From positions 1-49,888 of the forward strand of contig JAIPJW010000008.1 in the NCBI GenBank assembly GCA_021734075.1: a stretch of 49,888 nt of DNA, written 5' to 3'. Below the pieces are notes generated by a model. That model worked only from the letters and a program-made list of their open reading frames with translations. It did no database searches and was not told the DNA's origin. The stretch's first letter is position 1, and the number at the start of each line of letters is the position of its first letter. Shown one piece after another: positions 27,201 to 43,525 of the stretch. Origin of the DNA: Cephaloticoccus sp. GTDB lineage: Bacteria; Verrucomicrobiota; Verrucomicrobiia; Opitutales; Opitutaceae. The position numbers and the translations under genes were made by a program.

Positions 27201-27307
27201 GAGCACACTGATTGCTGCCAGCTGCAGACCTACCCAGCAATGGCAATCCGCCAGAAGAAGGGATTGACAGTCACCGGACGGGTCGTGAAGTTCTGCCACT
27301 CTTCACG

Positions 27308-27384
27308 GCGGCCATAGCTCAGTTGGTTAGAGCACTTGATTGTGATTCAAGGGGTCGCGGGTTCGAGTCCCGTTGGCCGCCCCA
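27308..27384 (+). tRNA. tRNA-His (anticodon GTG)
   Basis: Cloverleaf: acceptor GCGGCCA with TGGCCGC; D-stem GCTC/GAGC; anticodon stem CTTGA/TCAAG around TTGTGAT; T-arm GCGGG, TTCGAGT, CCCGT. The discriminator is C73 and CCA is encoded (27382-27384). The base before position 1 is G (27307), giving the G-1:C73 pair that identifies histidine tRNAs. Confidence 0.97.
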
Positions 27385-27397
27385 CTTTCACCATCCT

Positions 27398-28189
27398 ATG
27401 TTTTGGCTTAAAAAGGCGATCGCGTTCTGCCTGATGCCATTCACGGCCGGTCTGGGCCTGATCATATTCGGGGTGATACTGTCTTACCGGAAGCAATGGC
27501 CCCGCCTGGGGCGCACCCTGATCGTGGCAGGCGTGCTCATATTGGGCATTTCCAGCCACCGGCAGGTGGGATTGCTACTGCTTCAACCCTTGGAACAGCA
27601 ATATCCCGCAATCCCGGAATTCTCCGCGGGCGATACCTTGCCGACCACCTTGGCCGCCTGCCGCTACATCGTCGTGCTCGGTGGCGGCCATGCCGACGTG
27701 GCCTTGCTGCCCGCCACGAGCAAGCTCAGTCCCTATGCCCTGGCCCGCGTCGTTGAGGGCGTGCGGCTGGCCCGGTTGTTGCCCGAGGCCAAAATCATCA
27801 CCACCGGGCCGGGTTACCCCGGTCTGCAAACCCACGCCGAAATTCTCGCCCAAGCCGCCACATCTCTCGGATTGGATCCCAGCCGGTTGGAACAGACGGA
27901 CCATGGTCGTGATACGGAAAACGAGGCCCTTGCGCTCCAGAAACTGATCGGCGACCGTCCCTTCGCCCTGGTCACTTCGGCCTGGCACATGCCGCGGGCC
28001 ATTGCCCTCATGCGCAAGGCGGGGCTACACCCCCTCGCCTGCCCCGCCGATTTTCATGCCAAGGACAATGACCGGTTTACGTGGTCCGAATGGCTTTGGG
28101 GCTTGGATGGCCTCGAAAACAGCACCTGGGCGATCTACGAACGCTTGGGCTACCAGTGGGCCCGCGTGCGGGGCCGGATTGACGATTAG
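27398..28189 (+). CDS. YdcF/ElyC (DUF218) family membrane protein
   Basis: A 263-residue protein with two N-terminal membrane spans (AIAFCLMPFTAGLGLIIFGVI and TLIVAGVLILGISS), then a DUF218 domain: YIVVLGGGHAD, LARVVEGVRLARLLPEAKII, DTENEALAL and VTSAWHMPRAIALMRKAG. ElyC, the best-studied relative, supports envelope integrity and peptidoglycan synthesis at low temperature. ATG 27398 starts 13 bp after the tRNA-His 3' end, so a joint transcript is likely. It is convergent with phoU. Confidence 0.88.
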   Translation: MFWLKKAIAFCLMPFTAGLGLIIFGVILSYRKQWPRLGRTLIVAGVLILGISSHRQVGLLLLQPLEQQYPAIPEFSAGDTLPTTLAACRYIVVLGGGHADVALLPATSKLSPYALARVVEGVRLARLLPEAKIITTGPGYPGLQTHAEILAQAATSLGLDPSRLEQTDHGRDTENEALALQKLIGDRPFALVTSAWHMPRAIALMRKAGLHPLACPADFHAKDNDRFTWSEWLWGLDGLENSTWAIYERLGYQWARVRGRIDD

Positions 28190-28231: not shown

Positions 28232-28903
28232 TCAACTGCCGTTTTTCAAATTCTGGTCGTGCCGCACGTCCTTGCCCTTTGCCAGGTAGATCATCTCCTC
28301 GGCAATGTTGGTGGCGTGATCGGCTATCCGCTCAATCGATTTGGAAATGAACATCAGTTCTATCGCGCGGCTGATGGTGTCGGGTTGTTCCAGCATGAAA
28401 CTTGAAAGCTCCCGGTAGAGTTGCTTGTTGATGGCATCGACCTCGGCATCCCGACGGATGACATCCGCCGCTATTACGGCATCGCCATTGAGGAAACAAT
28501 CGAGGGCATCCCTTAACATCGTCCCGGCCATGCCGGCCATGCGAGGAATATCGAGGTAGGGTTTAAGCGGCGGCTCGGCGGCCAGGCGCACCGCCCGCTT
28601 GGCAATGCCCGTGGCTTCGTCACCCACCCTTTCAAGGTCGTGTGAAGCCTTCATGCCCACGATCACCAGCCGCAGTTCGGTGGCAATCGGTGCGCGCAGA
28701 TTCATATACCGCATGGCCTCCTCGTCTATTTTGATCTCCAATTGATCCAATTCATCGTCGCGGGCGATCACCCGGTCCGCCAGTCCAATGTCGGCCTCCA
28801 CCAATGCCTTGATGGAGTCGTTGAGTTGCTGGATGGAGGTCTCGCCCATCTTGATCAGATGGCTGCGAAATGTTTCCAGTTCGGCGTCGAAAAAGCGTTT
28901 CAT
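28232..28903 (-). CDS. phoU: Phosphate transport regulator PhoU
   Basis: A 223-residue all-helical protein that damps Pst transport and PhoR/PhoB signalling when phosphate is plentiful. Two repeats of the PhoU fold are seen, with metal-binding-like motifs EEAMRYMNLRAPIATELR, SHDLERVGDEATGIAKRA in the first and RDAEVDAINKQLYREL, KSIERIADHATNIAEE in the second. Length is typical. It is the last gene of the phosphate operon, 41 bp after pstB. Confidence 0.97.
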   Translation of the reverse strand: MKRFFDAELETFRSHLIKMGETSIQQLNDSIKALVEADIGLADRVIARDDELDQLEIKIDEEAMRYMNLRAPIATELRLVIVGMKASHDLERVGDEATGIAKRAVRLAAEPPLKPYLDIPRMAGMAGTMLRDALDCFLNGDAVIAADVIRRDAEVDAINKQLYRELSSFMLEQPDTISRAIELMFISKSIERIADHATNIAEEMIYLAKGKDVRHDQNLKNGS

Positions 28904-28944
28904 GATGTGGGGAGGACAGGCGTTTTGATCAGGGTGGGGGCAAC

Positions 28945-29808
28945 TCAGCCAAAGCGTCCGGAGACGTAGGCCTCGGTCTGGGCATTGCCGGGGTTCATAA
29001 AGATGGTTTGCGTATCGGCGTATTCAATCAGCTTGCCCAGATAAAAGAAGGCGGTCTTGTCCGAACAACGAGCCGCCTGTTGCATGTTGTGGGTCACGAT
29101 GATGATGGTGAACTGTGATTTTAATTCGTGGATCAGCTCCTCCACCTTCGAGGTGGAAATCGGGTCCAGGGCCGAACAGGGCTCGTCCATCAGGATAATT
29201 TCCGGCTCCACCGCAATCGCTCGTGCAATGCACAGTCGTTGCTGTTGTCCGCCCGACAGACCCAGACCGGAGGTGTTGAGCCGATCCTTCACCTCGTCCC
29301 ACAACGCGGCTCCACGCAGGGATTTTTCGACCACCTCGTCGAGATGCGCCTTGTTGCTGACCCCCTGCAGGCGCAAGCCGTAGGTGATGTTCTCGTAAAT
29401 CGACTTGGGGAAGGGATTGGATTTCTGGAAGACCATCCCGACGCGTTTGCGCAATTCAATGGCATCCACCTCCGGACTGTAAATGTCGACCCCGCGGATT
29501 CTGATCTGACCGCGCTTGACCTTGGTGCCGTCAATCAGGTCATTCATGCGGTTGAGGCAGCGCAGCAAGGTGGACTTGCCGCAGCCCGATGGGCCGATAA
29601 AGGCACTGACCTTCTTCTCCTCGATCTTCATGTCCACATCGAACAATGCCTGGTTGGCCCCGTAAAAAAAATCCACGTGATCAATGTCGATCAGGGTCTT
29701 GCCCACCGGGTTTGCGGTGGCAGGCGGCACCGCGCCAATTTGGTTGGCGACGGGATTCGAGGGGGCGGTCGGCGGGCTGGTTTCCATGGAAAGTGGGTGA
29801 GTCACCAT
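28945..29808 (-). CDS. pstB: Phosphate ABC transporter ATPase PstB
   Basis: A 287-residue ATPase subunit. Walker [22 protein letters not shown]-loop [19 protein letters not shown], signature [16 protein letters not shown], Walker [13 protein letters not shown] and switch [12 protein letters not shown] are all intact and typical of PstB. A Pro/Ala-rich N-terminal extension of about 35 residues precedes the ATPase core. The start overlaps the end of pstA by 7 bp, which implies translational coupling; a second ATG seven codons in (29787) is possible. Confidence 0.98.
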
Positions 29809-30851
29809 TTGTAACGGTTACGGAGATGATTACGCAGGATGATCGAGGCCGCGGCAATCAGTGCCACGATCAGCAAAAAGACAAAGGCGGTGCCGTATTG
29901 CACCCGCTCGGTGTATTCGTTCTGGGGGATTTTTGAACTCACCACGTAAATGTGATAAGGCAGCGCCATGACCCCCTGAAAAATGAAATCACTCGCACGG
30001 TGCAGATCCTCCCACGGGAGCTTGTCGCGGATGACATAGGCGGCGGTGAACATGATCGGCGCGGTTTCCCCTGCCACCCGCGCAATGCCCAGGATTGACG
30101 AGGTCAGGATGCCCGGCAGGGCGTAGGGCAGGACATTTTTCCGGATGGTCTGCCAATGGGTGGCGCCCAGGGCCAGGGAGCCTTCCCGAAAGCCTTTTGG
30201 CACGGAGCGCAGTGATTCCTCCGAGGCGGTGATCACCACCGGCAGCACCATGAACGCCAGGGTAAACCAACCGGCGACCAGTGAGACATTCCAACCAAAA
30301 TAATTCACGAACATGCCGAAGCCAAAAAGCCCGAATACGATGGAAGGCACCCCCGCGAGATTCAATATGGCGAGGCGCACAAAGCGGATGAACCGACCTT
30401 CCTTGGCGTATTCGCTGAGGTATACTGCCGCACAGACGCCCAGAATCAGGGCAATGGTCATGGAACCCACCACCAACAGCACGGTGCCGACAATGGCCGG
30501 GAAGATGCCACCGGCGGAGTAGACGTAACTGTCGGCATGCACTTTTGCCGCGGCGGGATTTGCGTCGGTGAAGGACCGATACTCCCGGTCCCCCATCTCG
30601 TGTTTCACGCCCTCATATTCAAAGACATAAAGCGATTCCGGAGCCTCCGTGAAGAAGGTTGTGTTGATGAACGGAGCCTCCGTCTTGAACACCGTGCCGG
30701 CTCCCTTGATGAAAATGGTCAGAAAGACCGAGGCGCCGCAAAGCAACACCAGATAAGTCGCGGCCCGGAAGGCCCAAAAAATCCGGTTCTCCCAGCGGGA
30801 ACCCGGGGTCGAGCGCTTTTGGAAAATATTGTGCGGGGCGGTGACGTCCAT
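29802..30851 (-). CDS. pstA: Phosphate ABC transporter permease PstA
   Basis: A 349-residue inner-membrane permease. The permease core has [37 protein letters not shown] and the ATPase-contact loop [18 protein letters not shown], then [12 protein letters not shown], all typical of PstA. It is about 50 residues longer than enteric PstA because of a periplasmic loop after the first span (residues 50-115, [11 protein letters not shown] region). ATG 30851 lies 4 bp from the pstC stop. Confidence 0.96.
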
Positions 30852-30855
30852 GAGT

Positions 30856-32457
30856 TCAGCCGATGGAGATGCGATAGCGGCGCACAATCTTCTGCGCGAG
30901 GTAGTTGATGCCGAGCGCCAGGAAAAACAGCAAGATACCCACCACGAACAGCGCGCGGTAGTGAATGCTGCCCCGCACCACTTCACCCATTTCCTGTGCA
31001 ATGATGCCGGTCATGGTGTGCACCGGTTGGGTGATCACGGCCAGCCCCGCCGTGAAATCCGGGATGGCAATGCGATTGCCGGCACAGAGCAGCACCACCA
31101 TGGTCTCACCAATCACCCGGCCCAGACCGAGCAGCACCGCGGAAATAATACCCGAAAGCGAGGCGGGCACTATGATGCGGATGATGGTCTGCAGGCGCGA
31201 TGCCCCGAGCGCCATGGAAGCTTCCTTGAAGGGCCGGGGCACGTTGTTGAGCGCATCCTCGGCGAGGGTGAAAATGGTGGGGACGGCAATCAGGGCCAGC
31301 AGGCAGCCGGCGGTCAGAATGTTGAGCCGCTCACTGTAGGGGAAACCCGGCACCCATTCCATCCAGCCTTGCTGCGACAGGGCCCGCAAAGCCTGGCCCA
31401 GCACGGCGATGCCGAAGAATCCCAGCACCACGGAGGGAATCGCGGAAATGAATTCAATACCGGGTTTGATCAACCGGCGTTCCGCTTCCGTGGCGATCTG
31501 GTTGACGTAAATCGCCGCACCCACGCCCATGGGAACCGCCAGCAACAGGGCGACAAATGACACCATCAGCGATCCCACCACAAGGGGCACGACCCCATAC
31601 CAATCCTGCCAAAAGCTGGCCGTGAGCCAATCCCGACCAAAGATAAAGGCACTGATGGAACGGAAAAATGGCACCTCCTTGTGATAATCCCATGTCTCCA
31701 GATTCCTTTCGATGGCGGGAAAACCCGCCAGGTAGGTCCGGGTGAGTGCCTTGAAATGGACCAGACGGGCCGCGATTTCGTCCGTGGGCATGACCGGGGC
31801 CTGCCCGAGAACTTCCTCCAGTTGCCGGCCAAATTCCGCAGTGATCGTGCGGTAGGTGGGCAGAATGCCCACCAAGGGGGCTAATTCCGCATCAAAATCC
31901 ACCGTGATTTGCTCCACCTTGGCGGCCTCGTCCTTTTTGCCTTCTGCCAGCAATTGCTCCCGCTCGGTTTGCTTGTCCTCGGAGATCAGGAATTTTGATT
32001 TGATGGCCGAGGCGACATCCGTGAGGTCCGAGAGCACATCACGCAGCGGGTCGACGGCATAACTGTAATTGTCGGCAAACTCGTCAAACGACCGTAATTG
32101 GGCATTGGCCGCAGCCAGATCCATGCCCTTCTCTTCGGTGTAATACAGGAACTGTTGCCGCCGCATATCCGCGAGGTAACGACTCAGGGCCGTGTGGTCA
32201 TCCACCTGTTGGCGGATGTAATCGACATATTCCAGACCAGCCTGACGGTAAATCTTCAGGTTGCGCTGGTTTTGGGTGAAGAAATCAGTGCCTTCCCGGA
32301 ACAGGAAAATCGTGATCAGGGCGAGCACCACAACTGAAACCACGGCATTGCCCTGAAAAAAATGCCGGATGAAATCGTCCACACTCAGACCCAGGAATCT
32401 CACGCGGGATTTCCTGATGGGAAATGAAGGTTCGTTATCCGGGGACTTGGAATCCAT
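30856..32457 (-). CDS. pstC: Phosphate ABC transporter permease PstC with large periplasmic insertion
   Basis: A 533-residue permease. The C-terminal 250 residues carry the family core: [59 protein letters not shown] and [14 protein letters not shown]. Between the first span (near residue 40-55) and the second lie about 210-220 extra, mostly helical and charged residues (57-275), far longer than in enteric PstC (about 320 residues in total). The insert should be periplasmic and could contact PstS or another envelope protein. ATG 32457 is chosen because the 13 upstream codons run into the terminator stem. Confidence 0.93.
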
Positions 32458-32496
32458 TGCGTTGGTGCGGTCGTGATAAACCGGTTGACAGCACAA

Positions 32497-32526
32497 AAGC
32501 CCGCCGACGCTTGGTCAAGCGGGCTT
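32497..32526 (-). terminator. Terminator or attenuator inside the phosphate operon
   Basis: Read on the minus strand: AAGCCCGC, a 14-nt loop, then GCGGGCTTTTG. An inner GCTTG/CAAGC pairing competes with the outer stem. It lies between the pstS stop and the pstC start and would let pstS and the porin be made in excess of the permease genes. Confidence 0.85.
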
Positions 32527-32546
32527 GTGACATTATTTGGTGAGGC

Positions 32547-33353
32547 TTAACGAATCGCCACGAAACCGACCTTTTCCACGATCTTCTGGCCTTCGTCACT
32601 GAGGGTGAACTCGATGAACTTGGCGGCTTCACCCACGGGCTCGCCGTTGGTGTAGTAGAAGGTCGGGCGGGCATAGGGATAAGCCTTGGACAGCACCGTT
32701 TCCTTGGAGGGATGAACCCCATTGATCCCCACGGCCTTGAGCCCAGGGTCACTGATATAGGCAATGCCCACATAACCGATGCCATTGGGGTTCTTGGCGA
32801 CTTCCGCCGCAATCTGCTCATTGCCCGCCATCTTTTGGGAGGAGGAGGCATAATCACGTTTCTTCATGGCCAAGGCCTTGAAGTCGGAATAGGTGCCGGA
32901 CGAAGTATTGCGGGTGTAGACCGAAATCTTGCCAGCCGGACCACCCACGGCGGACCAGTCCGTGATGTCACCGGTGAAGATCTGCTCCACCTGGCGCGGC
33001 GTCAGATCGTTGATTGGGCTGCCCGCATTCACGACGACCCCAATGCCATCGTAACACACGATGGTGGGCTTCATCGAAACCCCCTTGGCCTGGGCGGCGG
33101 ACATTTCGGTGGGCTTGGCCCGACGGGAAGCCATGCCGATATCAGCCGTGCTGTCAGTGATGGCTGCTATGCCGGTCGTGGAACCCTCCGCGGCGATTTC
33201 AAAGCTGACGCCGGGATGCTGGGCCTTGTATTCTTCGGACAGCATCGGCACGAGTTTGGCGCCCAGGGTGTCGGAACCCTTGATGACGAGTTTCTGAGCC
33301 TGCAGTGAGGTCGCGGCCAGGGAGGCCAGGGCGAGTATGAGTAATTTTTTCAT
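32547..33353 (-). CDS. pstS: Phosphate-binding protein PstS
   Basis: A 268-residue periplasmic binding protein with a signal peptide (MKKLLILALASLAATSLQAQ). Phosphate-site motifs are KGSDTLG near the N-terminus, EGSTTGIAAI, IGMASRRAKPTE and TRNTSSGTYSDF. It belongs to the shorter PstS-like type found across many phyla. It is 36 bp downstream of the porin gene and upstream of a terminator, consistent with high expression of the binding protein. Confidence 0.96.
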   Translation of the reverse strand: MKKLLILALASLAATSLQAQKLVIKGSDTLGAKLVPMLSEEYKAQHPGVSFEIAAEGSTTGIAAITDSTADIGMASRRAKPTEMSAAQAKGVSMKPTIVCYDGIGVVVNAGSPINDLTPRQVEQIFTGDITDWSAVGGPAGKISVYTRNTSSGTYSDFKALAMKKRDYASSSQKMAGNEQIAAEVAKNPNGIGYVGIAYISDPGLKAVGINGVHPSKETVLSKAYPYARPTFYYTNGEPVGEAAKFIEFTLSDEGQKIVEKVGFVAIR

Positions 33354-33389
33354 GACTGTTGATGTTTTTGTTGCAATTGAAAACCAGGG

Positions 33390-34670
33390 TTAAAAGTCGA
33401 TCTGCATCTGGGAACGAATGCCGGATCCATTCTCGGATGCACCATCGCTCAATTTGCTGTCGGTGTAACCGAGTTGCCACTTCATGCCGTCGGGCACAAA
33501 AGTGTAGGTCATTCCGATAAATATTTCCTCAAGCTTCTGACCGGTCTTGGCTGCCGGAGACGAGCGCACGCCGTCTGAAATCTTCACGCCACGACCGTCG
33601 GCGTCCACACTGCTGAAGCGGGCAACCGCCTCAATTTTCTCCGTAAGCGCAAAGGAAGGCTGGATCCAGTAACCACTGGGACTGGCATCCTTGCCCACTG
33701 CCGCACCACTGTCGACCGAGGCGGAGAGATATTCACCGGCCAGGTTGAACTTGCCCATCGTCAGATCGCCATAGAGCGAAAAGACATTCATGTCGTAGCC
33801 CTGACCCAGTGCGGTGTTCTTGACGCCACCTTGGTCAGGCAGGAACCCGACACCCGCACCGACCTTCAGCTTGCCGCCGGAGAACATGCTGGTGTAGCCG
33901 GCATCGGCCCAGAGTGCGACCGTGTTGTTCGCGCTGCTGCCACTGCTTTTGGAACCATCAACCGATCCATCGCCCGTGGTCTCGGTGCGTTGCGGGTTGG
34001 TGGCGGCGGCACCGAAAAAGAATCCGGAAGTCTTGGCTTTGCGGGCATTGACGTCGCCCCCTTCAAGATAGGCGCCGATGCGGTAACTCGCCGCACCCAA
34101 CCGCCGGCCATTGTTTGGCTCCACGAAGAAACGGGTGACGGGGGAACGCTCGATCGACTTTAGACTGCCCGAAGACATGGTCTCTTCGTAGCCGAGGTTG
34201 ACCTTGCGCAAACCGAAATCGAGCGCGATCGGCGTGCCGCCGGCATAACCGCTCCATTCCATGTAGGCCTTGTCGAAATTGCCGCCGGAAAAATCATAGT
34301 TCAAGTTGGCCGTCCAATCCGCACCCACGCCGGCTTTGACGCCGAAATAAATGCGACGGAGGAAGAACTGGCTGGTGGCCGCAACATTTTGGTCGGTGGA
34401 GAGACCGGCATATTGCAACTGCATGCGGCCGCTCAGGGCAATGGAGTTGGTCGCCTTGCCGCCGGAGACGGAGGAAATGACGAATTCCTGGGATTCACGG
34501 GAAAGGTCGGCGCGAATATCCTCGGCTTCCTGGTCCGTGATGATCCCCTTGCGGATAAGAACATCAAGCAGGGCACCACTTTCTCCGGCCAGCACCGGAC
34601 TGGTGATCAGGGCGACGCCTGCAAGCAGGGCGATCCATTTGGATTTGAATGTGAACATACGATTACTCAT
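33390..34670 (-). CDS. OprO/OprP-like phosphate-selective porin
   Basis: A 426-residue outer-membrane protein with a signal peptide (residues about 5-28, LLAGVALITSPVLAGE). A short helical N-terminus follows (LLDVLIRKGIITDQEAEDI), then a beta-barrel of alternating strands ending SQMQIDF with the terminal Phe of outer-membrane barrels. It matches the phosphate-selective porin O/P family (SGRMQLQY, RRIYFGVKAGVG, NYDFSGGNFDKAYMEW). Linkage to pstS supports a role in phosphate entry across the outer membrane. A second ATG is four codons in. Confidence 0.92.
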   Translation of the reverse strand: MSNRMFTFKSKWIALLAGVALITSPVLAGESGALLDVLIRKGIITDQEAEDIRADLSRESQEFVISSVSGGKATNSIALSGRMQLQYAGLSTDQNVAATSQFFLRRIYFGVKAGVGADWTANLNYDFSGGNFDKAYMEWSGYAGGTPIALDFGLRKVNLGYEETMSSGSLKSIERSPVTRFFVEPNNGRRLGAASYRIGAYLEGGDVNARKAKTSGFFFGAAATNPQRTETTGDGSVDGSKSSGSSANNTVALWADAGYTSMFSGGKLKVGAGVGFLPDQGGVKNTALGQGYDMNVFSLYGDLTMGKFNLAGEYLSASVDSGAAVGKDASPSGYWIQPSFALTEKIEAVARFSSVDADGRGVKISDGVRSSPAAKTGQKLEEIFIGMTYTFVPDGMKWQLGYTDSKLSDGASENGSGIRSQMQIDF

Positions 34671-34715
34671 TTTGGTTGGTAGGTTTGTGGGACGGTGCAG
34701 TTTTAGCCCACGATT

Positions 34716-34742
34716 GTTACGAATCCGTGTCGCGCATGTCAC
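34716..34742. promoter_or_regulatory. Possible Pho-box half-sites upstream of the porin-pst operon
   Basis: On the plus strand GTTAC (34716), GTGTC (34727) and GTCAC (34738) are spaced exactly 11 bp apart, 46-72 bp before the porin start codon. The period and the GTCAC core recall PhoB sites, and the same layout is seen more clearly at 39521-39553. Only partial matches, so low confidence. Confidence 0.35.
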
Positions 34743-34847
34743 AAACCTGCAAAACACCGCCGGAACGGGTATTTTCATGCGCCGCGATTGAATCGCGTCG
34801 TCCGGGCCGCAGCCCGACCCCGTTGATTCCACAACCATGCGACGCCA

Positions 34848-36626
34848 TCAGGCGTCTTTTTCCGGCTTCTTGCGCGACTCCACCAGGGCGAGCATCAGGT
34901 CGTTTTTGGACAGACTGCCCAGTAACAAACCGGCCGCATCCACCACCGGCAAACGTTGGACATCGCTGCCCAGAAACTTGCCCAGTGCCTCGCTCAAGGC
35001 GTGATCAGGATCAAGCCTCGGAAAATCCTCGCGCAGGATATCACCCGCCAACACCAGGTCGGCCACCCCCGCCTCACCGAGATAGGGTTTGATGTCATGC
35101 AGCGACACTGCCCCCAGAAAATGTCCCTCGGGATCCGTCACATACACATTGTTGACCCGCACTGAGAGAAACAATCGGGCGATTTCCGCAAACCGGGCCG
35201 TCGGGGCCACGGTCGGGGGATTGGGTTTGACCAAATCGCGCACCTTCCCGACCTCCAACACGGCTGTGGGATCCTCGGCACGTTTCCGGCGCAGCACTTC
35301 CCCGTAAAGTGAATGGGTGTCAATTCCCCGGGCAGTGAAATAGGCGACGACACTGCACAACATCAAAGGAAGAATAATGTCATAGCTGAGGCTCATTTCA
35401 AAAATCATGATCACGGCCATCACCGGAGCCCGACTTGCCGCCGAGAGGAACGCCCCCATGCCGACTAGGGCAAAGGCCTGCGGGTTGGGCACCAGGTGCG
35501 GCCACATCCCGTGGATGGCCGAACCAAAAAGATAACCGCCCGAGGCCCCCATGAACAGGGTCGGGGTGAACACGCCACCCTGCGCGCCGGAACCGACGGA
35601 AGAGGCGGTTGCGAGCCATTTGCAGCACATGATGCCGATCAGTGCCAACCAGATGATCCTGCCATTTAGGATGTCCACCACCACGGTGTAACCATTGCCG
35701 CAGACTTCGGGCACATTGATCGCAATGGCTCCGACCAACAACCCTCCCAAGGTCAAGCGGCCGATCAACGGCAGCTTCGTGTCGACGAAAAATGACTCGG
35801 CCAAGCGCAGGGAACGCAGGAAAAACGGCGCCACCAAACCGGCCAACAAACCGAGGATCAGATAAGGCCCCATTTCCCACGGCGAGCTGAGCTTGAAATC
35901 CCCCACCAGATAAAGGGCCTGCGCGTTGCCCAACACTTGCATGGTGAGGGCCGCCGTCACCGCCGCCGCCACGAGTGCGCCCAGACTCTCCATGGCAATG
36001 GTGCCAAGAATGATTTCGGCCACGAAAAAGGATCCCCCGATCGGTGCATGATAGGCGGAGGCGATGCCCGCGGCCCCGCCGCAGGCCACCAGCAAACGCA
36101 GCTGTTGGCGTGAAAACCGCCGCCAGCGCCCTATCAAGGAAGCCATCAAGGCCGCCAATTGCACCATGGGACCTTCCCGACCGACCGATCCCCCGGAACC
36201 GATGGTAAAAAGCGCCGCGGTGATTTTCACCAGGCTGCTGCGCAGCGGCAGATGACCATCACCGATCACAATGGCTTCCATGTAGTCGGTCGAACTCTTG
36301 CCCGGGACCAAGCGCTTGCCCATCATCAGCACCACACCTGCCAACAAACCGCCGACTGCCGGAACAGCCAGCGTTGCCCACCAGGGTAAACGCCGCATGG
36401 ATTCCACCACGCCGGCATTCGAGTTCGTCAGCACCTGGTGAATGCCCTCCGCACATGCGGCAAAAAACAAGGACGCCAGCGCGCCCAGAAACCCCGCCAA
36501 TGAAGCCCATGCCAGGGTGAGTTGCCATTCCGTCGGTTGCAGTCGTTCCGCCAGCCACACGCGCCAACGCAGCAGCCGCAGCAGCCGGTCCATGATCAAT
36601 TTGGCCGGGTCGGTAACCGTCTTCAT
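34848..36626 (-). CDS. ClC-type chloride channel/transporter with C-terminal CBS pair
   Basis: A 592-residue membrane protein of the ClC family. The gating-glutamate motif GSVGREGPMVQ and the anion-binding GGVFTPTLFMGASGG are intact. The first family motif GSGIP is not recognisable; the corresponding place reads GKSSTDYMEA, as in some bacterial ClC subgroups. From about residue 460 to the end are two CBS domains (VRVNNVYVTDPEGHFLGAVS and DVQRLPVVDAAGLLLGSLSK), which usually sense adenine nucleotides. It exchanges or conducts chloride or another anion. It is transcribed in the same direction as the porin-pst operon but 177 bp upstream, with no sign of co-regulation. Confidence 0.93.
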   Translation of the reverse strand: MKTVTDPAKLIMDRLLRLLRWRVWLAERLQPTEWQLTLAWASLAGFLGALASLFFAACAEGIHQVLTNSNAGVVESMRRLPWWATLAVPAVGGLLAGVVLMMGKRLVPGKSSTDYMEAIVIGDGHLPLRSSLVKITAALFTIGSGGSVGREGPMVQLAALMASLIGRWRRFSRQQLRLLVACGGAAGIASAYHAPIGGSFFVAEIILGTIAMESLGALVAAAVTAALTMQVLGNAQALYLVGDFKLSSPWEMGPYLILGLLAGLVAPFFLRSLRLAESFFVDTKLPLIGRLTLGGLLVGAIAINVPEVCGNGYTVVVDILNGRIIWLALIGIMCCKWLATASSVGSGAQGGVFTPTLFMGASGGYLFGSAIHGMWPHLVPNPQAFALVGMGAFLSAASRAPVMAVIMIFEMSLSYDIILPLMLCSVVAYFTARGIDTHSLYGEVLRRKRAEDPTAVLEVGKVRDLVKPNPPTVAPTARFAEIARLFLSVRVNNVYVTDPEGHFLGAVSLHDIKPYLGEAGVADLVLAGDILREDFPRLDPDHALSEALGKFLGSDVQRLPVVDAAGLLLGSLSKNDLMLALVESRKKPEKDA

Positions 36627-36762
36627 CCGTCGACCCCTTTGGTCCGGCCAGTCTCCGCGTCAGGGTCAAACCCACCCTGCCCACCCGAAAATTCGGCGTC
36701 GATTCTCCTGCCCGGAAATAGGATCTCAAAAATAGCGTCCACTTTTCGTCACCGTAGCCTTC

Positions 36763-36793
36763 ACCTTGGGCAAAACAAGCCTGCGCCCAAGGT
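36763..36793. other. Nine-base-pair inverted repeat between ClC and helicase genes
   Basis: ACCTTGGGC, 13-nt spacer, GCCCAAGGT, perfect. It lies downstream of the helicase gene and about 140 bp upstream of the ClC start. Lack of a T-run argues against a plain terminator; an operator for a dimeric regulator is possible. Confidence 0.45.
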
Positions 36794-36854
36794 TCGGGGT
36801 TAATTTTCCATAAAACACGTCAAACCCAAGTGGATGCCCGGCCCAAGTCCCCAA

Positions 36855-39437
36855 TCAGGACTGGCCGTCCGGGTCGGATTCCACCTGGGCGGTCAGTTGC
36901 ACCAAACTCTGCAAGGAGGAAAAGTGCTGGCTCAGATCAAAATCTCCGCCCAGACCACCGATCAATTTGTCGAACAAGTCTTTCTTGTCCGCCTTCAATT
37001 CCTGGATGCGTTCCTCAATCGTGCCGGCCGTGACCATGCGATAGACGAATACCGTGTTGGTCTGCCCGATCCGGTGCACCCGATCCACGGCTTGTGCCTC
37101 CACCGCCGGATTCCACCATGGGTCCAATAAAAACACGTAATCCGCCGCATGTAATGTGATGCCGGTGCCGGCCGCCTTGAGCGAGACCAACATGGCCGCC
37201 GCACCTTCCGCAGTCTGGAAATCCTGCACCGGCTTTTGCCGGTCCAACGTCATGCCGGTCAGTTCAAAACGGGCCAATTCGGGAAAATTTAACTCCAGGG
37301 CCGTCTTCACCCTTTCGAGAAACATCACGAATTGGGAAAAGATTACGACCTTGTGTCCGTTTTCGATGACTTCGGTCAGCTTATCCATCAACAGGTTGAT
37401 CTTGCCCGAATCACTCAGCGGCGACTTCCGCCACGGCAGCATGTCGGGGTCGCAGCAGGTTTGTCGCAAACGCGTGAGCAGCGCGAGAAAACCGAAGGAT
37501 TTTTCGCGCATGGCCGTGCCCACGTCGTCACCCAGTCTTTCCAAACCTTCGGCACAGGTCCGGGCGTATTCCGCCCGTTGCACCTCCGTCAGCGGGCAAA
37601 GCAAATCCATCTCCACCTTGGGCGGTAATTCCTTCGCGACCTCCTTCTTCGTGCGGCGCAATATAAAGGGAGCCAATTGGGTTCGCAGTCGTTCCATCGT
37701 GCCCCGACGGTCCGTGTTGAGCGCCGCTTCAAAGACCGCCCGCGAACCCAAGAGGCCGGGTAGCAGGAAACGGAAAATGCTCCACAGATCGAGCTGACGA
37801 TTTTCCAACGGAGTGCCCGTCAGGACAATCCGGCGCTGTGCCCGCACCGCAAAGCAGGTCTGCGTGATCTTGGCGTCCGGGTTCTTGATGAACTGGCCTT
37901 CGTCCAACACCGCGTAGCCAAATTCACATTGGGGCAGCAGTTCGCGGTGTTTGCGCAATTGGGTGTAGCTCGCGATCCAGACCACCTTGGCCGTATGCGT
38001 GGTGAAGTCGTGGCCGGCCTTGATGACCTCCACCTTCAGTTCCGGGAAAAATCGCGTAATCTCCTCCTGCCAAACCGGCACCACACTGGCGGGACATACC
38101 ACCAGGCTGGGACGATCGGTCAGGGGGCGCGTCGCCAAAAGCGTGATGATTTGCAGGGTCTTGCCCAGGCCCATTTCATCCGCCAGCAGGCCATGACAGC
38201 CGACTTCACCCAAGTGCGCCAACCATTCCACGCCGCGGCGTTGATAGGGACGCAATACTTCCGGCATATCCGAAGAGGGATTCGAAGGGGCAAGGACCTG
38301 TTGCCGCCAGGCCTCGACTTCGGGGGTTAGGGTCAATTTCAACCGGGCATCATTGAAAAGTGAAAACACCAGATACGGCGGCAAGGTGCCGTCGCCTTGG
38401 GTTTCCTTGATGTTGCGCTGCCAGCTTCGGTAGCTTTCCCAGCGTTCGGGCGAGAGAGACACGATGCCGAAATTGGGCAGTATCACCGGCTGGCCGTCAT
38501 GCCTGAGCAATGCCTTGACCTCGGTGGCCGACAGCATTTTTTCCCCGGCGCGGAAGATCCACCGCAGGTTCAGGGGATTGTCCCCGGCGGGTGCCCCCCC
38601 GGGCGTGAAGCCACTCGTCGCCGATTCCGCAATTGCCTCGATGTCGATCGCGCGGGTGCCTTTCAACAGGTTGAGCGACTTGTCATCCAATTCGATCGAA
38701 AACAATTTTTTCCAAGCCGGCAGGGTGCCCTTCAGGAAATTGGGAATCTCCACCAGGGAGGCCATCAGGTAGACTCCCGACTCCTGATTGTATTGAAAGT
38801 GGGCCTTGCGCGCATACGCCGCCAAACCGATCAGCTTGGCCCGTTCACTGGAACTGACATGACCATTGCCGTTGGCGTGCGCCGCAGTGCCCAAGGCCGG
38901 ATGCTTGGTCTTGCCATCCTCGTCCAACCAACAGGCCTGGAAGGTAAGACCGCGCGTCTTGGTTTTGAAAACCAACAAGAGCCGCCGTTGCGTATCGGGG
39001 CGGTCGCTCGCGGGTTTGGTTTCGGCTCGCGCCGGGATTGCCGCGCCATTTGTTGAATTTCCGGAACCGTGCCCATTGGGGCCAAAATCATCGGAAAGCG
39101 GCGAAATCTCATCAGCCACCAATTCCTCAATTTCGTGCAATCCAGCGACCGCCAGCGCCCTGGCCACCTCCATGTCCGTGGTGGAGGAACGCACGGAAAG
39201 CCCGGTTTTGCCCTCCCATTCGATAACCGCGTATTCGTCCTTTTTTTCGATTCGGCGGTGGATAATGGCATCCTTGTCCGTCAATTCCAGTTCACGGACC
39301 TCCCCTTCACGATAGAGCCGTCGACCTGCATCCAACTGGCTCTCACTGAACACGACAGACCAGTCGTTTTCGAGTTTACTGAACCAGAATTCCAAAGACT
39401 GCGGGGTGTATACGCGCTTGGGGCCGTGTGCTTGCAT
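36855..39437 (-). CDS. SNF2-family DEAD/DEAH-box helicase
   Basis: About 860 residues. The C-terminal half is a complete Swi2/Snf2 ATPase. It has LLADEMGLGKTLQII (motif I, Lys near residue 426), LDEGQFIKN (motif II, DEGQ), LTGTPLENRQLDLWSIF (III) and VSLKAAGTGITLHAADYVFL (V). Motif VI is DRVHRIGQ. The N-terminal 400 residues match the bacterial SNF2-associated region but lack the CxC and CxH residues of a SWIM zinc finger. Such proteins remodel nucleic-acid-protein complexes, RapA being one example; the target is unknown. It stands alone, divergent from the lipid-remodelling operon. ATG 39437 is chosen; an upstream in-frame start at 39515 would overlap most of the regulatory region. Confidence 0.92.
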   Translation of the reverse strand: MQAHGPKRVYTPQSLEFWFSKLENDWSVVFSESQLDAGRRLYREGEVRELELTDKDAIIHRRIEKKDEYAVIEWEGKTGLSVRSSTTDMEVARALAVAGLHEIEELVADEISPLSDDFGPNGHGSGNSTNGAAIPARAETKPASDRPDTQRRLLLVFKTKTRGLTFQACWLDEDGKTKHPALGTAAHANGNGHVSSSERAKLIGLAAYARKAHFQYNQESGVYLMASLVEIPNFLKGTLPAWKKLFSIELDDKSLNLLKGTRAIDIEAIAESATSGFTPGGAPAGDNPLNLRWIFRAGEKMLSATEVKALLRHDGQPVILPNFGIVSLSPERWESYRSWQRNIKETQGDGTLPPYLVFSLFNDARLKLTLTPEVEAWRQQVLAPSNPSSDMPEVLRPYQRRGVEWLAHLGEVGCHGLLADEMGLGKTLQIITLLATRPLTDRPSLVVCPASVVPVWQEEITRFFPELKVEVIKAGHDFTTHTAKVVWIASYTQLRKHRELLPQCEFGYAVLDEGQFIKNPDAKITQTCFAVRAQRRIVLTGTPLENRQLDLWSIFRFLLPGLLGSRAVFEAALNTDRRGTMERLRTQLAPFILRRTKKEVAKELPPKVEMDLLCPLTEVQRAEYARTCAEGLERLGDDVGTAMREKSFGFLALLTRLRQTCCDPDMLPWRKSPLSDSGKINLLMDKLTEVIENGHKVVIFSQFVMFLERVKTALELNFPELARFELTGMTLDRQKPVQDFQTAEGAAAMLVSLKAAGTGITLHAADYVFLLDPWWNPAVEAQAVDRVHRIGQTNTVFVYRMVTAGTIEERIQELKADKKDLFDKLIGGLGGDFDLSQHFSSLQSLVQLTAQVESDPDGQS

Positions 39438-39520
39438 CCAAGTAAAAAAGTAGAACCTAGAATCCGGCCATGCGGGTGCAACCACGAAGTGAGTCTGATT
39501 TGCGTCTTTGCACATTTGCC

Positions 39521-39553
39521 CGATTCGTCACCGAAATGACACCGGATCGTCAC
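39521..39553. promoter_or_regulatory. Three contiguous 11-bp direct repeats (Pho-box-like)
   Basis: Plus-strand units CGATTCGTCAC, CGAAATGACAC and CGGATCGTCAC follow one another without a gap. CGTCAC in units one and three is exactly 22 bp apart. They end 46 bp before the GT4 start and 84 bp before the helicase start. PhoB binds 11-bp direct repeats with a (T)GTCA core, so this is a candidate Pho box for the glycolipid operon. Confidence 0.6.
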
Positions 39554-39599
39554 GACACGCCGTCAGGTTAGAGTTCGCATCACCAATAATTTACCGACC

Positions 39600-40742
39600 T
39601 TGAAACTCGCCATTGTCACCGAAACATTTCCTCCCGAGGTCAATGGCGTCGCCATGACATTTGGTGTCATCGCCCGTGAATTGGGCCTTCGCGGTCATGC
39701 CATCACCGTCTACCGACCACAACGTGATGACTTGTCCACCACTGATTTCGTCCCGGAATATCATGAGGTCCCCATGCCGGGCATGCGTATCCCAGGTTAC
39801 CCTCTCCTGCGGCTCGGCCTGCCCGCCCGGGGCCGGCTGATGCGCGCCTGGCGGAAAGACCGGCCAGATCTGGTTCATGTAGTCACGGAGGGTCCCCTGG
39901 GGGCCACCGCAGTCAGTGCGGCCCGGGCATTGCACGTGCCGGTCACATCCAGCTTTCACACCAATTTTCACGCTTATACGCACAACTACGGGTTCAGCTT
40001 TCTGCAGCCGGTCGTGCTCGGCTGGTTGCGCCGGGTGCACAACCGCACCTCGCGCACCTTTGCCCCGACCAACGAACTTTGTGTCGAGCTGACCCGTTTG
40101 GGCTTTGCCAACATGACCCTGCTTTCCCGCGGGGTGGACACCGCATGTTTTTCGCCGTTCCGGCGCTCCGACGAACTACGCACCTCGTGGGGCGCCGGTC
40201 CGGAAGATCCTGTGGTCCTGCATGTCGGCCGTATGGCCGCGGAAAAAAACTACGACCTGCTCTTCCAGTGCTATGCCGCCATGCGCGCGGTCAATCCCCG
40301 CCTGCGCTTCGTGCTCGCCGGTGACGGTCCTTTGCGCGAGACAATGATCCAGGCGCACCCCGAATGCCATTTTGCGGGCTTCTATTCCCGTGATGAAATA
40401 GGCCGTTACTATGCCTCGGCTGACATCTATATCCACGCCAGCCTGACCGAAACCTTCGGCAATGTCCTGACTGAAGCCATGGCCAGCGGGCTCGCAGTGG
40501 CCGGTTTTGATTATGCCGCCGCCCGACAATTTATCCGGCAACGTGAAAACGGACTCGTGGTGCCGGTCGATCAACCGGCGGCCTTGGTCGCAGCCGCGGT
40601 GGAACTTGCCCGGGATGAACCGCTCCGGTCTGGCCTGCGTCGCGCCGCCCGCACCGGCTTCGAACTCCAATCCTGGTCCCACGTCATCGGGCGCTTCGAA
40701 AGTGACCTGCTGGCCGCCGCCCAAGGCGGAACAAGCAAATGA
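39600..40742 (+). CDS. GT4 glycosyltransferase (MgtA/SqdX/Agt-like)
   Basis: A 380-residue GT-B glycosyltransferase. N-terminal IVTETFPPEVNGVAMTFGVI and the block SFHTNFHAYTHNYG are typical of the MgtA/SqdX/PimB-like subgroup, which transfers sugar from a nucleotide donor to lipid acceptors. The C-terminal nucleotide-sugar site has LHVGRMAAEKNYDLL and HASLTETFGNVLTEAMASG (the EX7E motif). The start is TTG, fixed by homology (KLAIVTETF). It overlaps the next gene by ATGA, and the third gene of the operon is PlcP-like. This suggests that diacylglycerol is the acceptor. Sugar donor unknown. Confidence 0.88.
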   Translation: MKLAIVTETFPPEVNGVAMTFGVIARELGLRGHAITVYRPQRDDLSTTDFVPEYHEVPMPGMRIPGYPLLRLGLPARGRLMRAWRKDRPDLVHVVTEGPLGATAVSAARALHVPVTSSFHTNFHAYTHNYGFSFLQPVVLGWLRRVHNRTSRTFAPTNELCVELTRLGFANMTLLSRGVDTACFSPFRRSDELRTSWGAGPEDPVVLHVGRMAAEKNYDLLFQCYAAMRAVNPRLRFVLAGDGPLRETMIQAHPECHFAGFYSRDEIGRYYASADIYIHASLTETFGNVLTEAMASGLAVAGFDYAAARQFIRQRENGLVVPVDQPAALVAAAVELARDEPLRSGLRRAARTGFELQSWSHVIGRFESDLLAAAQGGTSK

Positions 40743-41938
40743 GCCGGATCATCATTCTCACCGCCGGGTATGGCGAGGGCCACAACGCCGCCGCACGCAA
40801 TCTTGCCACCGCCCTCGACGCCGCGGCCGGAGCTGGCACTGCCCGTGTGGTCGATCTGTTTGCGCTCGCCTCTCCCCGCCTGAATGCGATTGCCCGTCGG
40901 GGTTACCTCACGGTCATCAACCGCTTGCCCAGACTTTGGAGTGCCTTTTATGCGTGGATTGATCGCACTCGACCCTTTCCCCGACACTTGTGGATCCTGC
41001 GTCGCGAACGGCGGCTGCTGGCCGGAATGATTCAGCAGGAAAAGCCCGTTTTGATCTGCAGCACTTATCCCGTCTATGCATTCCTGCTGGAACAACTGAC
41101 CGAGACCGGGACCATCTCCGCGCCGTATTACAACCTCGTGACTGATTCCATCAGTATCAATTCGCTCTGGTGGTTGCCCCGGTGTCACGGCTGGTATCTC
41201 CCCAACGTGGAATCCGCGCGGGTGATCACCGCCGCCGGCCGCAGTCCCACCCTGCTGCATACCCTCGGGTTTCCGGTGCAACCCTTCTTTGCCGCACAGA
41301 CGGGCGAGTTGCAGCCGCCCAATCTTGCCACCGGCCACAACCCGCGGGTGCTCTACATCATCAATTCCGGCTCGAAACATGCGGAGACCACGGCCCGTCT
41401 GTTGCTGGCCGAGTCCAATTGGGAAATCACTTGTGCCGTCGGCCGTGATCAGCGCCTGCGGGCGCGTCTGCAAAAGTTGGCCAACCGGCGTCGCATCCCT
41501 GCCACCATCCTCGGCTGGACCGACCAGATTCCGCAACTGCTTATGACCCACCATGCGGTGGTCAGCAAAGCCGGAGGAGCCACGACGCAGGAAGCCATCG
41601 CGGCGCGCTGCCCGATGATCGTCAACCAGATCATCCCCGGACAGGAGGAGGGCAACTACGAGCTTCTGCGGCGCCACGGCATCGGCGCCCTCGCCCCCAC
41701 CCCCCGGGCCGTTGTCACGGTCCTGCGTGATGGATTTGCCCATGGAGGCAATCTTTGGCGCGAATGGCGCCACAGCCTCACCCAACTGACCCGACCGACT
41801 GCGGCCGCGGATATTGCCCGTCACCTGCTCACCCAAGGCAAATGTCACTTATTAGGTGACCCTTCTCCTGTTGCCACGACTGATGTCACCCCGAGGGAAA
41901 ACCTCCGGCTTTCAAAGGCAATGACACCCATTAAGTGA
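40739..41938 (+). CDS. MGDG synthase-like (GT28) glycosyltransferase
   Basis: A 399-residue protein. The N-terminus ILTAGYGEGHNAAARNLATAL is the MGDG-synthase domain signature (G-x-G-H-x-x-A-A). The C-terminal half has IINSGS, the GT28 donor site GWTDQIPQLL, then SKAGGATTQEAIAARCPMIV and IPGQEEGNYELLRRHG. Relatives such as plant MGD1 and bacterial UgtP-type enzymes glycosylate diacylglycerol. It is translationally coupled to the GT4 gene (ATGA overlap) and 7 bp before the PlcP-like gene. It may add the first or a second sugar; which of the two glycosyltransferases acts first cannot be told. Confidence 0.85.
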   Translation: MSRIIILTAGYGEGHNAAARNLATALDAAAGAGTARVVDLFALASPRLNAIARRGYLTVINRLPRLWSAFYAWIDRTRPFPRHLWILRRERRLLAGMIQQEKPVLICSTYPVYAFLLEQLTETGTISAPYYNLVTDSISINSLWWLPRCHGWYLPNVESARVITAAGRSPTLLHTLGFPVQPFFAAQTGELQPPNLATGHNPRVLYIINSGSKHAETTARLLLAESNWEITCAVGRDQRLRARLQKLANRRRIPATILGWTDQIPQLLMTHHAVVSKAGGATTQEAIAARCPMIVNQIIPGQEEGNYELLRRHGIGALAPTPRAVVTVLRDGFAHGGNLWREWRHSLTQLTRPTAAADIARHLLTQGKCHLLGDPSPVATTDVTPRENLRLSKAMTPIK

Positions 41939-41945
41939 CAATCAC

Positions 41946-42746
41946 ATGGAAAAAAAACTGCTCCAAGTGCGCACGGTGATCATTTCCGACGTCCATCTCG
42001 GGACGCCGGACTGCAAAATCGAGGAGGTGAATCATTTCCTGCGGACCATCCGGTGCCGGAAGTTGATCCTCAACGGTGACATTATCGACGGCTGGCAGTT
42101 GAAACGGGCCGGCCAGTGGACCAAGGCGCACACCCGCTTCGTCCGCATCGTGCTCAAGAAACTCGAGAAGCGTGACACCGAGATCATCTACCTGCGAGGC
42201 AACCACGATGACGTGCTCACCGCCTTCCTGCCGCTAGAATTTTCCGGACTTTCCATCGTGGAGGATTACATCCATGAGGGTCCGCGCGGCCGCTACCTCG
42301 TGCTGCACGGCGATGTGTTTGACACCGTCACCAAAAATTTCGTCTTCCTCGCCCATCTCGGCGATTGGGGCTACCGCGCCCTGCTGAAGATCAACCGCCT
42401 CTACAACGCCTACCGCGTCTGGCGGGGCAAGGAATACTGGTCACTCAGCAAGGCCATCAAGGCCCGGGTCAAGGAAGCCGTGAACCATGTGTCCAATTTC
42501 GAGGACCATATTGCCGAGCTGGCCGCCAGTCGCGATTGTGTCGGTGTCATGTGTGGTCACATCCACACCCCGGCGGACAAGCAACTGGGCAGGATTCACT
42601 ACCTCAATTCCGGCGATTGGGTCGAATCAATGACCGCCATCGTGGAGCACCTCGACGGGAATTATGAGTTAATCAATTACGCCCATTTTGTGCGGGACTT
42701 TCCCGCCCCGTCGGTCGAATTTGCCGCCGAATCCACCGAGCTCTGA
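41946..42746 (+). CDS. plcP: PlcP-like metallophosphoesterase (phospholipase C type, LpxH-related)
   Basis: A 266-residue calcineurin-like phosphoesterase with all metal ligands: ISDVHLGT (D15, H17), GDIIDGW (D45), RGNHDD (N86, H87), HGD (H121) and GHIHTP (H205, H207). Databases usually label this family UDP-2,3-diacylglucosamine diphosphatase. However, GDIIDGWQLKR, the YWSLSKAIKARVKEAVN stretch and SGDWVES are the features I recall from PlcP of Sinorhizobium and marine bacteria. PlcP releases phosphate headgroups from phosphatidylcholine or phosphatidylglycerol under phosphorus starvation. The operon with two lipid-type glycosyltransferases supports PlcP over LpxH. Lipid A synthesis remains the alternative. 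Confidence 0.78.
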   Translation: MEKKLLQVRTVIISDVHLGTPDCKIEEVNHFLRTIRCRKLILNGDIIDGWQLKRAGQWTKAHTRFVRIVLKKLEKRDTEIIYLRGNHDDVLTAFLPLEFSGLSIVEDYIHEGPRGRYLVLHGDVFDTVTKNFVFLAHLGDWGYRALLKINRLYNAYRVWRGKEYWSLSKAIKARVKEAVNHVSNFEDHIAELAASRDCVGVMCGHIHTPADKQLGRIHYLNSGDWVESMTAIVEHLDGNYELINYAHFVRDFPAPSVEFAAESTEL

Positions 42747-42889: not shown

Positions 42890-43525
42890 ATGACAATTTA
42901 CTGGGGTCTGTTCCTGCCAGGTTTGCTGCTGCTGTTCTTTCCGGCGGACCGACTGCTGTCATCCGTGGTGCAACTGCGTAGTTTCGACTGTTTCCAAAGC
43001 TTGGAAGACAGCGCACGCCACCGCCCGTGGTGGTGGGTGCCGCTCCTTTGGATCGATCCCTTGCGCGGTCTAGCCGGCACACTGCTGCTCAAGCAGGCCC
43101 TGGACTTGAACTCCCCCTATTGGGACTCCATTCCCCTGCCGGGTTACTGCCTGCTGCTGGGTCTGCTTGTCCCCGCCATCTGGTGCCAGACTTATACCCG
43201 GCGCGAAGATCAGGTCATGCTGGCGCCGCTGGGCTTCGTCTTTGGCATTGTCGGCGCCCTCACTTCGTGGCCCGTCGCGCTCCTCGGTTTGATCATGGCC
43301 CTGACCGGTCTGTTTGCTTTCCGTCAATTCCATGCCTTTTTCGCCATGGGACTCGCGGCGGTCGCGCTGGTCGGATTTGTCATGGAAATAAATCCCCACT
43401 GGCTGGTCCCCGCCGTGATCGTGGTCGGCCTGCCCATCATGATCTCGATCATCACCGGCCGCACTCTGGAAGTGCCGACGCGCGACGCTTCCGGTGGCAA
43501 ACGGGCCAAGGCTGATTCAGTCTGA
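42890..43525 (+). CDS. Hypothetical membrane protein
   Basis: About 211 residues with five or six hydrophobic segments (for example YWGLFLPGLLLLFFPADRLL and AFFAMGLAAVALVGFVMEI) and a short charged tail. I do not recognise the family. It lies 143 bp after the PlcP-like gene in the same direction, so it might be carried on the same transcript or have its own promoter. The 3' end overlaps the convergent Kdo transferase gene by 9 bp. ATG 42890 starts just before the first span; an in-frame TTG at 42857 is less likely. Confidence 0.65.
   Translation: MTIYWGLFLPGLLLLFFPADRLLSSVVQLRSFDCFQSLEDSARHRPWWWVPLLWIDPLRGLAGTLLLKQALDLNSPYWDSIPLPGYCLLLGLLVPAIWCQTYTRREDQVMLAPLGFVFGIVGALTSWPVALLGLIMALTGLFAFRQFHAFFAMGLAAVALVGFVMEINPHWLVPAVIVVGLPIMISIITGRTLEVPTRDASGGKRAKADSV

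Follow-up and report, generated by a model that had tools for sequence, protein, structure and literature searches.

To our knowledge, most work on phosphorus-free membranes concerns proteobacteria, algae and plants, and very little of it concerns Verrucomicrobiota. The closest described systems contain a PlcP-type phosphoesterase encoded next to a lipid glycosyltransferase. One report (PMC4796936) places plcP across phyla, including in a verrucomicrobium, with putative Pho boxes at the clusters that contain it and with agt or other glycosyltransferase genes beside it; the Agt enzyme is reported there to make monoglycosyl diacylglycerol (MGDG) and glucuronic acid diacylglycerol (GADG). A second report describes plcP–agt in methanotrophs, a B. 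subtilis-type diacylglycerol (DAG) glycosyltransferase gene beside plcP in several type Ia methanotrophs, and an absence of PlcP from verrucomicrobial methanotrophs (PMC9239053). Here, a phosphate-import gene set and a neighboring GT4–GT28–plcP operon were analyzed in a 49,888-nucleotide stretch of a Cephaloticoccus genome (contig JAIPJW010000008.1, positions 1–49888 of C129 in our numbering; hereafter the window). The genome comprises 3.53 Mb in 212 contigs and is 91.3% complete. The two operons are very probably members of one Pho regulon that would exchange phospholipids for glycolipids under phosphate starvation.

The phosphate-import set runs from position 34670 down to 28232 on the minus strand. 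Its first gene encodes a Porin_O_P-type porin (33390–34670; PF07396, 60 bits, cut-off 20.9). The open frame of the porin gene extends to 34838, but 34670 is the likelier start because of the position of a Pho-box-like site upstream. The porin gene is followed by genes for PstS (PstS family; 32547–33353; TIGR02136, 231.9 bits, cut-off 206.6), PstC (30856–32496; TIGR02138, 248.7 bits, cut-off 196.45), PstA (29802–30851; TIGR00974, 263.1 bits, cut-off 193.45; the start was placed at an internal ATG in a frame open to 31001), PstB (28945–29808; TIGR00972, 406.5 bits, cut-off 343.2) and PhoU (28232–28903; TIGR02135, 214.7 bits, cut-off 130.25), all five of which exceed the curated NCBIfam cut-offs. 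PstC carries a long N-terminal extension of ∼270 residues that precedes the family-matching part (residues 276–541).

The second set lies on the plus strand at a distance of 4.9 kb. It consists of genes for an Agt/PimA-like GT4 glycosyltransferase (39600–40742; PF13439 and PF00534), an MGDG-synthase/UgtP-like GT28 glycosyltransferase (40739–41938; PF06925 (MGDG_synth), 38.6 bits, cut-off 25) and a PlcP-like, calcineurin-like metallophosphoesterase (41946–42746; PF00149, 45.7 bits). The GT4 and GT28 genes overlap by 4 bp, and a gap of 7 bp separates the GT28 gene from plcP. Two genes on the minus strand, encoding a ClC channel and an SNF2 helicase, are located between the pst set and the GT4–GT28–plcP operon. 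A single transcript of both sets is ruled out by the opposite strands and the two unrelated genes between them. The initial annotation, which described the two operons as lying side by side, was correct in all its gene positions and left the opposite strands unmentioned.

The porin–pst and GT4–GT28–plcP operons share a predicted Pho-type operator together with the spacing of the −10 element. Promoters were collected from a sample of 120 genomes of the family, the Cephaloticoccus genome of the window included. The pst promoters from 40 of 75 loci outside shared regions, combined with those from shared regions, amounted to 58 and were reduced to one per genus, and the resulting pst matrix was built from 34 genera with the window excluded and one genome of the same genus (G099) included. 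Expectation-maximisation on these promoters yielded the motif GTCACm.r..CGyCACr.rwTCGTAACAA, which contains three 7-mers at an 11-bp pitch (31.2 bits). When both strands of the window were scanned, the pst matrix ranked the porin promoter first (34716–34744, minus strand; TTGTGAC-N4-GCGACAC-N4-TCGTAAC; 31.8 bits) and the GT4 promoter second (39525–39553, plus strand; TCGTCAC-N4-ATGACAC-N4-TCGTCAC; 15.5 bits), and the third site reached 8.1 bits. A separate matrix, learned from the GT4 promoters of 28 genera (65 loci), placed its top three window sites in the porin and GT4 promoters. When the pst promoters were masked, the best site of the pst matrix was found within 250 bp upstream of the GT4 gene in 47 of the 65 loci (1.8 expected), representing 21 of the 28 genera. 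Among loci that contain neither a porin gene nor pstS, the best site was likewise located upstream of GT4 in 26 of 42.

The −10 element was analyzed at sites that scored more than 14 bits and had sufficient sequence downstream (34 pst and 18 GT4 genera). The combination of an A at +10 and a T at +14 after the box, matching the layout of a −10 hexamer, occurs in 28 of the 34 pst promoters and in 9 of the 18 GT4 promoters, and any other offset accounts for three at most. The GT4 promoter of the window has both bases, with CAGGTT at the −10 spacing. The box belongs to the GT4 operon, given that just 22 of 94 loci have a divergent SNF2 gene no more than 700 bp away from GT4 and that the box is also the best site where no SNF2 gene was found (for example L159, L160, L171 and L175).

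The genome of the window was also searched with a pattern built from the porin and GT4 sites, so that the exact matches to these two sites prove nothing and the absence of others is the informative result; no further Pho-box site was found in this genome at up to one mismatch. Ten rows with two mismatches, in which one site is counted on both strands, were rejected as additional Pho-box genes and attributed to chance because the reversed control gave 18 in all. The initial annotation had proposed looking for a PhoB/PhoR pair in the genome, and adjacent genes for a PhoB-like response regulator (G000:C104:4429–5199) and a PhoR-like histidine kinase were found on another contig (G000:C104:4429–6464 for the pair). 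The best named families of the two proteins are PhoB (251.3 bits) and PnpS/PhoR (316.5 bits).

A different element was observed in Verrucomicrobiaceae-type loci. The palindrome GTGAC-N6-GTCAC stands ahead of the GT4–plcP pair in 14 of the 19 loci scanned (L040, L041, L045, L046, L050–L052, L055, L057, L058, L060–L062 and L064), and elsewhere in those loci one further match was found, in L061. The palindrome could represent a Pho box of two units or the target of a different regulator.

The phosphoesterase groups with PlcP and is predicted to cleave phosphatidylethanolamine (PE) and phosphatidylglycerol (PG) to DAG. Calcineurin-type phosphoesterases bind metal through DxH, GD, GNHD, H and GHxH motifs, and the window protein has all of them (SDVHLG, NGDIID, RGNHDD, LHGD and CGHIH). 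In blastp comparisons, the protein shares 42% identity with a Sinorhizobium meliloti homologue (266 aligned residues), 51% with a Parabacteroides protein and 22% with E. coli LpxH (E 5e-4). The S. meliloti reference is presumably the characterised plcP product, with a LuxR-type neighbor as the sole backing. The nearest relatives are Opitutaceae or Opitutae records (75–82% identity among the best 15), which, in agreement with the tree placement, bears out a verrucomicrobial host. A maximum likelihood tree was constructed from 30 proteins, consisting of the window protein, proteins from 19 of the 80 loci of relatives and 10 references. In this tree, the 4 LpxH-type rows are separated from the 26 others with support of 100/100, and the tree tool flagged long branches for the LpxH rows and Thioclava. 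The window protein and Opitutaceae proteins form a four-member set (99/97), which nests in a 21-member set of Verrucomicrobiota and Bacteroidota (99/100) that adjoins the proteobacterial PlcP homologues. The LpxH equivalog model scores the window protein at 37.1 bits, below its cut-off of 134, and an LpxI-like gene is present elsewhere in the genome (LpxI_C, 140.2 bits, cut-off 25). This gene speaks to a refuting condition named by the initial annotation, the lack of any other LpxH in the genome, since it would serve the lipid A step. A search of the genome with the LpxH model returned nothing at E ≤ 0.001; it also missed the weakly matching window protein itself and thus says little about distant LpxH proteins. 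A search of solved structures with the PlcP sequence gave no match at E ≤ 0.01. The assignment to PlcP rather than LpxH, and the phylogeny that the initial annotation had suggested for deciding it, therefore came out on the PlcP side.

Two further observations concern PlcP relatives. The plcP gene of a metagenome-assembled genome labelled Legionellales (L039, 817–1581) groups with Verrucomicrobiota inside the 21-member set (59% identity to the window protein), which reflects misbinning or transfer. The Parabacteroides PlcP-like gene overlaps a Glyco_trans_1_3 glycosyltransferase gene (L135, 2977–4898) whose product is unrelated to GT28 by blastp and may be a further glycosyltransferase partner of a PlcP-like gene.

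The best solved structures for the GT4 protein are of the PimA type (E 4e-16). Across 303 aligned columns, the protein shares 31% identity with the GT4 enzyme encoded after plcP in a Sphingomonas, and PimA and other GT4 enzymes score as well. The GT28 protein aligns through residues 3–360 of 399 with MGD1 (4wyi; E 8e-19), also matches the processive DAG glucosyltransferase 9wde (E 1e-15), and scores 126.5 bits against the diglucosyl-DAG synthase model PRK13609, below the cut-off of 500. Because both glycosyltransferases miss equivalog cut-offs, their sugars and products are not readable from the scores.

Many members of the family carry the operon. A plcP gene is present in 93 of the 120 genomes (82 of the 96 genomes of good quality; 41 of 49 genera). 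Locus composition was determined for 94 plcP loci from 92 genomes other than that of the window, some of which are cut by contig ends. The most frequent arrangement is GT4–GT28–kinase–PlcP (28 loci), followed by GT4–GT28–PlcP (15), GT4–kinase–PlcP (10), GT4–PlcP–GT28 (10), kinase–PlcP (4), GT4–PlcP (3), GT28–kinase–PlcP (2), PlcP–GT28 (2) and GT28–PlcP (1); PlcP stands without GT4, GT28 or kinase in 19. A lipid kinase is thus often the fourth gene of the operon. It is found in 44 of the 94 loci, and the operon kinase of L012 is a YegS/Rv2252/BmrU lipid kinase (TIGR00147, 126.7 bits, cut-off 118.65).

Proximity of pst and plcP, which the initial annotation had proposed to check in related genomes, recurs in a fraction of the family. 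The pstS gene was detected in 99 of the 120 genomes (E ≤ 1e-20). Among the 80 genomes that contain both pstS and plcP, a count that leaves out the genome of the window together with four rows for second fragments (in G026, G029, G060 and G104), the two genes lie on the same contig in 32 and within 22 kb of each other in 24 (10 of 37 genera). In 21 of the 24 close cases, plcP has pstS upstream of it on the other strand; an SNF2 gene mostly separates the two, often together with a ClC gene, and part of the closeness is therefore inherited synteny. Other arrangements were also observed. In L153, the porin and pstS genes follow 0.5 and 1.8 kb downstream of plcP on the same strand. A convergent phoU–pstB pair lies directly downstream of plcP in L169, and phoU–pst lies further downstream in L154. 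Among the 80 loci of PlcP relatives, 10, all of the Verrucomicrobiaceae type, have a phoU match after plcP, and the PhoU domain was confirmed in one of them, L050.

The window also contains a YegS-type lipid kinase gene (23767–24663, plus strand), located 3.6 kb beyond phoU outside the operon. It is the only DAGK_cat match in the genome, and its product is 47% identical to the L012 kinase, whose gene sits inside the operon. None of the eight best window sites of either Pho-box matrix lies near this gene. In the same-genus genome G119, a kinase orthologue (76% identity) is found at the equivalent position, likewise 3.6 kb from phoU. The kinase gene is positioned 11–15 kb from pstS, with none in the operon, in G037, G040, G071, G074, G095, G096, G113 and G116, and an operon kinase is accompanied by a second copy on the same contig in G015 and G052. 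Given these separate or double copies, relocation of the kinase out of the operon in the genus of the window is not claimed. The window kinase gene is divergent from miaA (22741–23652, minus strand; IPPT, PF01715). At family loci with plcP alone, it is plcP that stands opposite miaA in divergent orientation (L208 and L213, both with IPPT confirmed; L212 and L222 alike by eye), and plcP and the kinase thus seem to use the same slot beside miaA in different genera. Two genomes of the genus of the window with sizes of 2.1–2.4 Mb (G045 and G076) retain pstS and gave no plcP or DAGK_cat match, possibly through joint loss of the lipid branch. On the other side of phoU from pstB, a tRNA gene (27308–27381) lies between phoU and trpA (25553–26389; PF00290), within a mechanical open frame (27212–28189).

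The likely working of the locus can be outlined from known PlcP–Agt systems, on the basis of which we infer the regulation in the cell, the cleavage of phospholipids, DAG as the sugar acceptor, the identity of the sugars and the roles of the glycosyltransferases and the kinase. At low phosphate, the PhoB/PhoR-like pair would turn on both the porin and PstSCAB–PhoU importer and the GT4–GT28–plcP operon. PlcP would remove the phosphate headgroup from phospholipids to give DAG and a phospho-headgroup whose phosphate could be re-used. GT4 and GT28 would then add sugars to DAG, and the resulting phosphorus-free glycolipids would take the place of phospholipids. In many relatives, the operon kinase could turn DAG back to phosphatidate, which would make DAG a branch point. 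Neither BtaA (PF11899) nor an OlsB-type protein (PF13444) was matched in the 91.3%-complete genome, leaving glycolipids as the sole phosphorus-free route found in it.

Several observations weigh against this Pho-regulated glycolipid exchange. The top-site test fails in 18 of the 65 GT4 loci, the full −10 pair is missing in half of the 18 GT4 promoters, and the porin promoter in the window, whose sequence at the −10 spacing is TAAAAC, has the A at +10 and no T at +14. The PhoB/PhoR-like pair scores below the curated cut-offs (251.3 versus 296.2 bits and 316.5 versus 334.2 bits), as does the LpxI-like protein with the whole-protein NCBIfam LpxI model (132.5 versus 400 bits). In the PlcP clade of Verrucomicrobiota and Bacteroidota, no member with tested enzyme activity was found. 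SNF2 and ClC genes, which have no known function in phosphate handling, remain in the same block, so the pst synteny may be inherited. Among the loci without GT4 upstream of plcP, 25 of 28 were checked for the box, some of them cut by contig ends, and a pst-type box above 5 bits was present near plcP in 3. The box thus goes with the GT4-headed operon, and plcP itself is not always part of the regulon.

Two other readings set the operon outside the phosphate response. The phosphoesterase would be the lipid A enzyme LpxH in one of them, and the glycosyltransferases would build lipopolysaccharide or another envelope glycan. LpxH belongs to the same superfamily, many public records name such proteins UDP-2,3-diacylglucosamine diphosphatase, and a KdtA-like gene is located at 43517–44803. 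The identity of the protein as LpxH is nevertheless contradicted by the equivalog score, the fully supported tree split, the low identity to E. coli LpxH and the LpxI-like gene, which would supply the same step; the promoter common to pst and the MGDG/UgtP kind of the GT28 protein also speak against this reading, and the reading as a whole is highly improbable. A constitutive glycolipid pathway that controls membrane charge or curvature, lying close to pst merely by inherited synteny, is somewhat less improbable but still unlikely. It is in keeping with the retention of SNF2 and ClC in the same block and with the 56 of 80 genomes in which pstS and plcP are not near each other, many of these assemblies being in many contigs. 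It does not account for the box upstream of GT4 at loci devoid of porin and pstS, for a −10 spacing equal to that of pst promoters, or for the arrangements in which plcP meets pst or phoU differently (L153, L169 and the 10 loci with a phoU match).

The remaining readings keep the phosphate response and differ in the fate of DAG. The initial annotation coupled phosphate import to a two-step glycolipid synthesis. The shared Pho-box-like promoter provides the regulatory link, but two steps on one lipid are called into question by the 13 of 94 family plcP loci that have GT4 and lack a nearby GT28, some of these loci being cut by contig ends. The chances that GT4 and GT28 work in parallel or singly, and not in series, are about even. 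A particular parallel scheme, in which GT4 makes one lipid (e.g. an acidic hexuronosyl-DAG, the kind of product that Agt gives elsewhere) to replace PG and GT28 makes neutral mono- or diglycosyl-DAG to replace PE, is a serious contender that falls slightly short of an even chance. It agrees with the loci that pair plcP with one glycosyltransferase, including the 5 of 94 that have GT28 and no GT4 (two at contig starts), and with the two products reported for Agt (PMC4796936). Both glycosyltransferases accompany plcP in 53 of 94 loci, which fits a series as well, and substrates cannot be predicted from the scores. It is conceivable, though doubtful, that the Opitutaceae operon is a four-enzyme DAG switch in which PlcP supplies DAG, the two glycosyltransferases of different families channel it into phosphorus-free glycolipids and a kinase controlled by the same Pho box returns part of it to phosphatidate. 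One operon would then tune the balance between glycolipid and anionic phospholipid instead of simply replacing one lipid by another. In the genome of the window, the kinase gene stands apart without a detected box, so that under such a switch phosphate would govern the outward branch alone there.

The earlier interpretation of this DNA was largely right and is now better grounded, chiefly through the shared promoter. The proposed Pho-regulated glycolipid exchange now has a named operon, a searchable operator and a known distribution across the family (93 of the 120 sampled genomes carry plcP), with which genomic and transcriptomic data could reveal phosphate limitation of Opitutaceae. Surprises are most likely to come from the operon kinase, which raises the question of why a cell should make phosphatidate while saving phosphate.

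The Pho box of enterobacteria consists of 7-bp direct repeats at an 11-bp pitch ahead of the −10 element. The family box shares the repeat length, the pitch and the −10 element that follows, but it has three repeats (four in G024), is richer in G+C and reads GTCAC / CGyCAC / TCGTAAC. The operon itself most resembles the PlcP–Agt remodelling systems of rhizobia, SAR11, roseobacters, Methylosinus and Pseudomonas, which likewise have a PlcP-family phosphoesterase gene adjoining a GT4 lipid glycosyltransferase gene, putative Pho boxes at plcP clusters and a phosphate-starvation setting (PMC4796936, PMC9239053). In contrast to those systems, GT4 precedes plcP in Opitutaceae, GT28 lies between them or after plcP, and a lipid kinase is often present; the window GT4 is also only distantly related to the plcP-linked GT4 of Sphingomonas (31%), and its PlcP belongs to the Verrucomicrobiota/Bacteroidota clade. 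The type Ia methanotrophs, as described in PMC9239053, resemble the window in having a DAG glycosyltransferase of the processive kind (B. subtilis YpfP type) beside plcP, but no agt is adjacent there, whereas the window has both glycosyltransferases and a box common to pst. In the marine neighborhood types 3 and 5, plcP is immediately upstream of putative glycosyltransferase genes, one of which is tied to di- and triglycosyl-DAG (PMC4796936); gene order and taxon differ from those of the window.

No description of a GT4–GT28–(kinase)–plcP operon was found among the titles and the opening parts of abstracts of the papers listed, a search that left subscription journals mostly outside and is weak evidence of absence. 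The suggestion of the initial annotation that the three-gene version may be undescribed can be kept for the two-glycosyltransferase, often kinase-containing and Pho-boxed form. It does not extend to PlcP in a verrucomicrobium or to a DAG glycosyltransferase beside plcP, which PMC4796936 and PMC9239053 (for type Ia methanotrophs), respectively, already place in print. PlcP paired with a glycosyltransferase is thus an established theme, and the gene combination and the shared switch of the Opitutaceae operon look like a new version of it and not a new kind of system.

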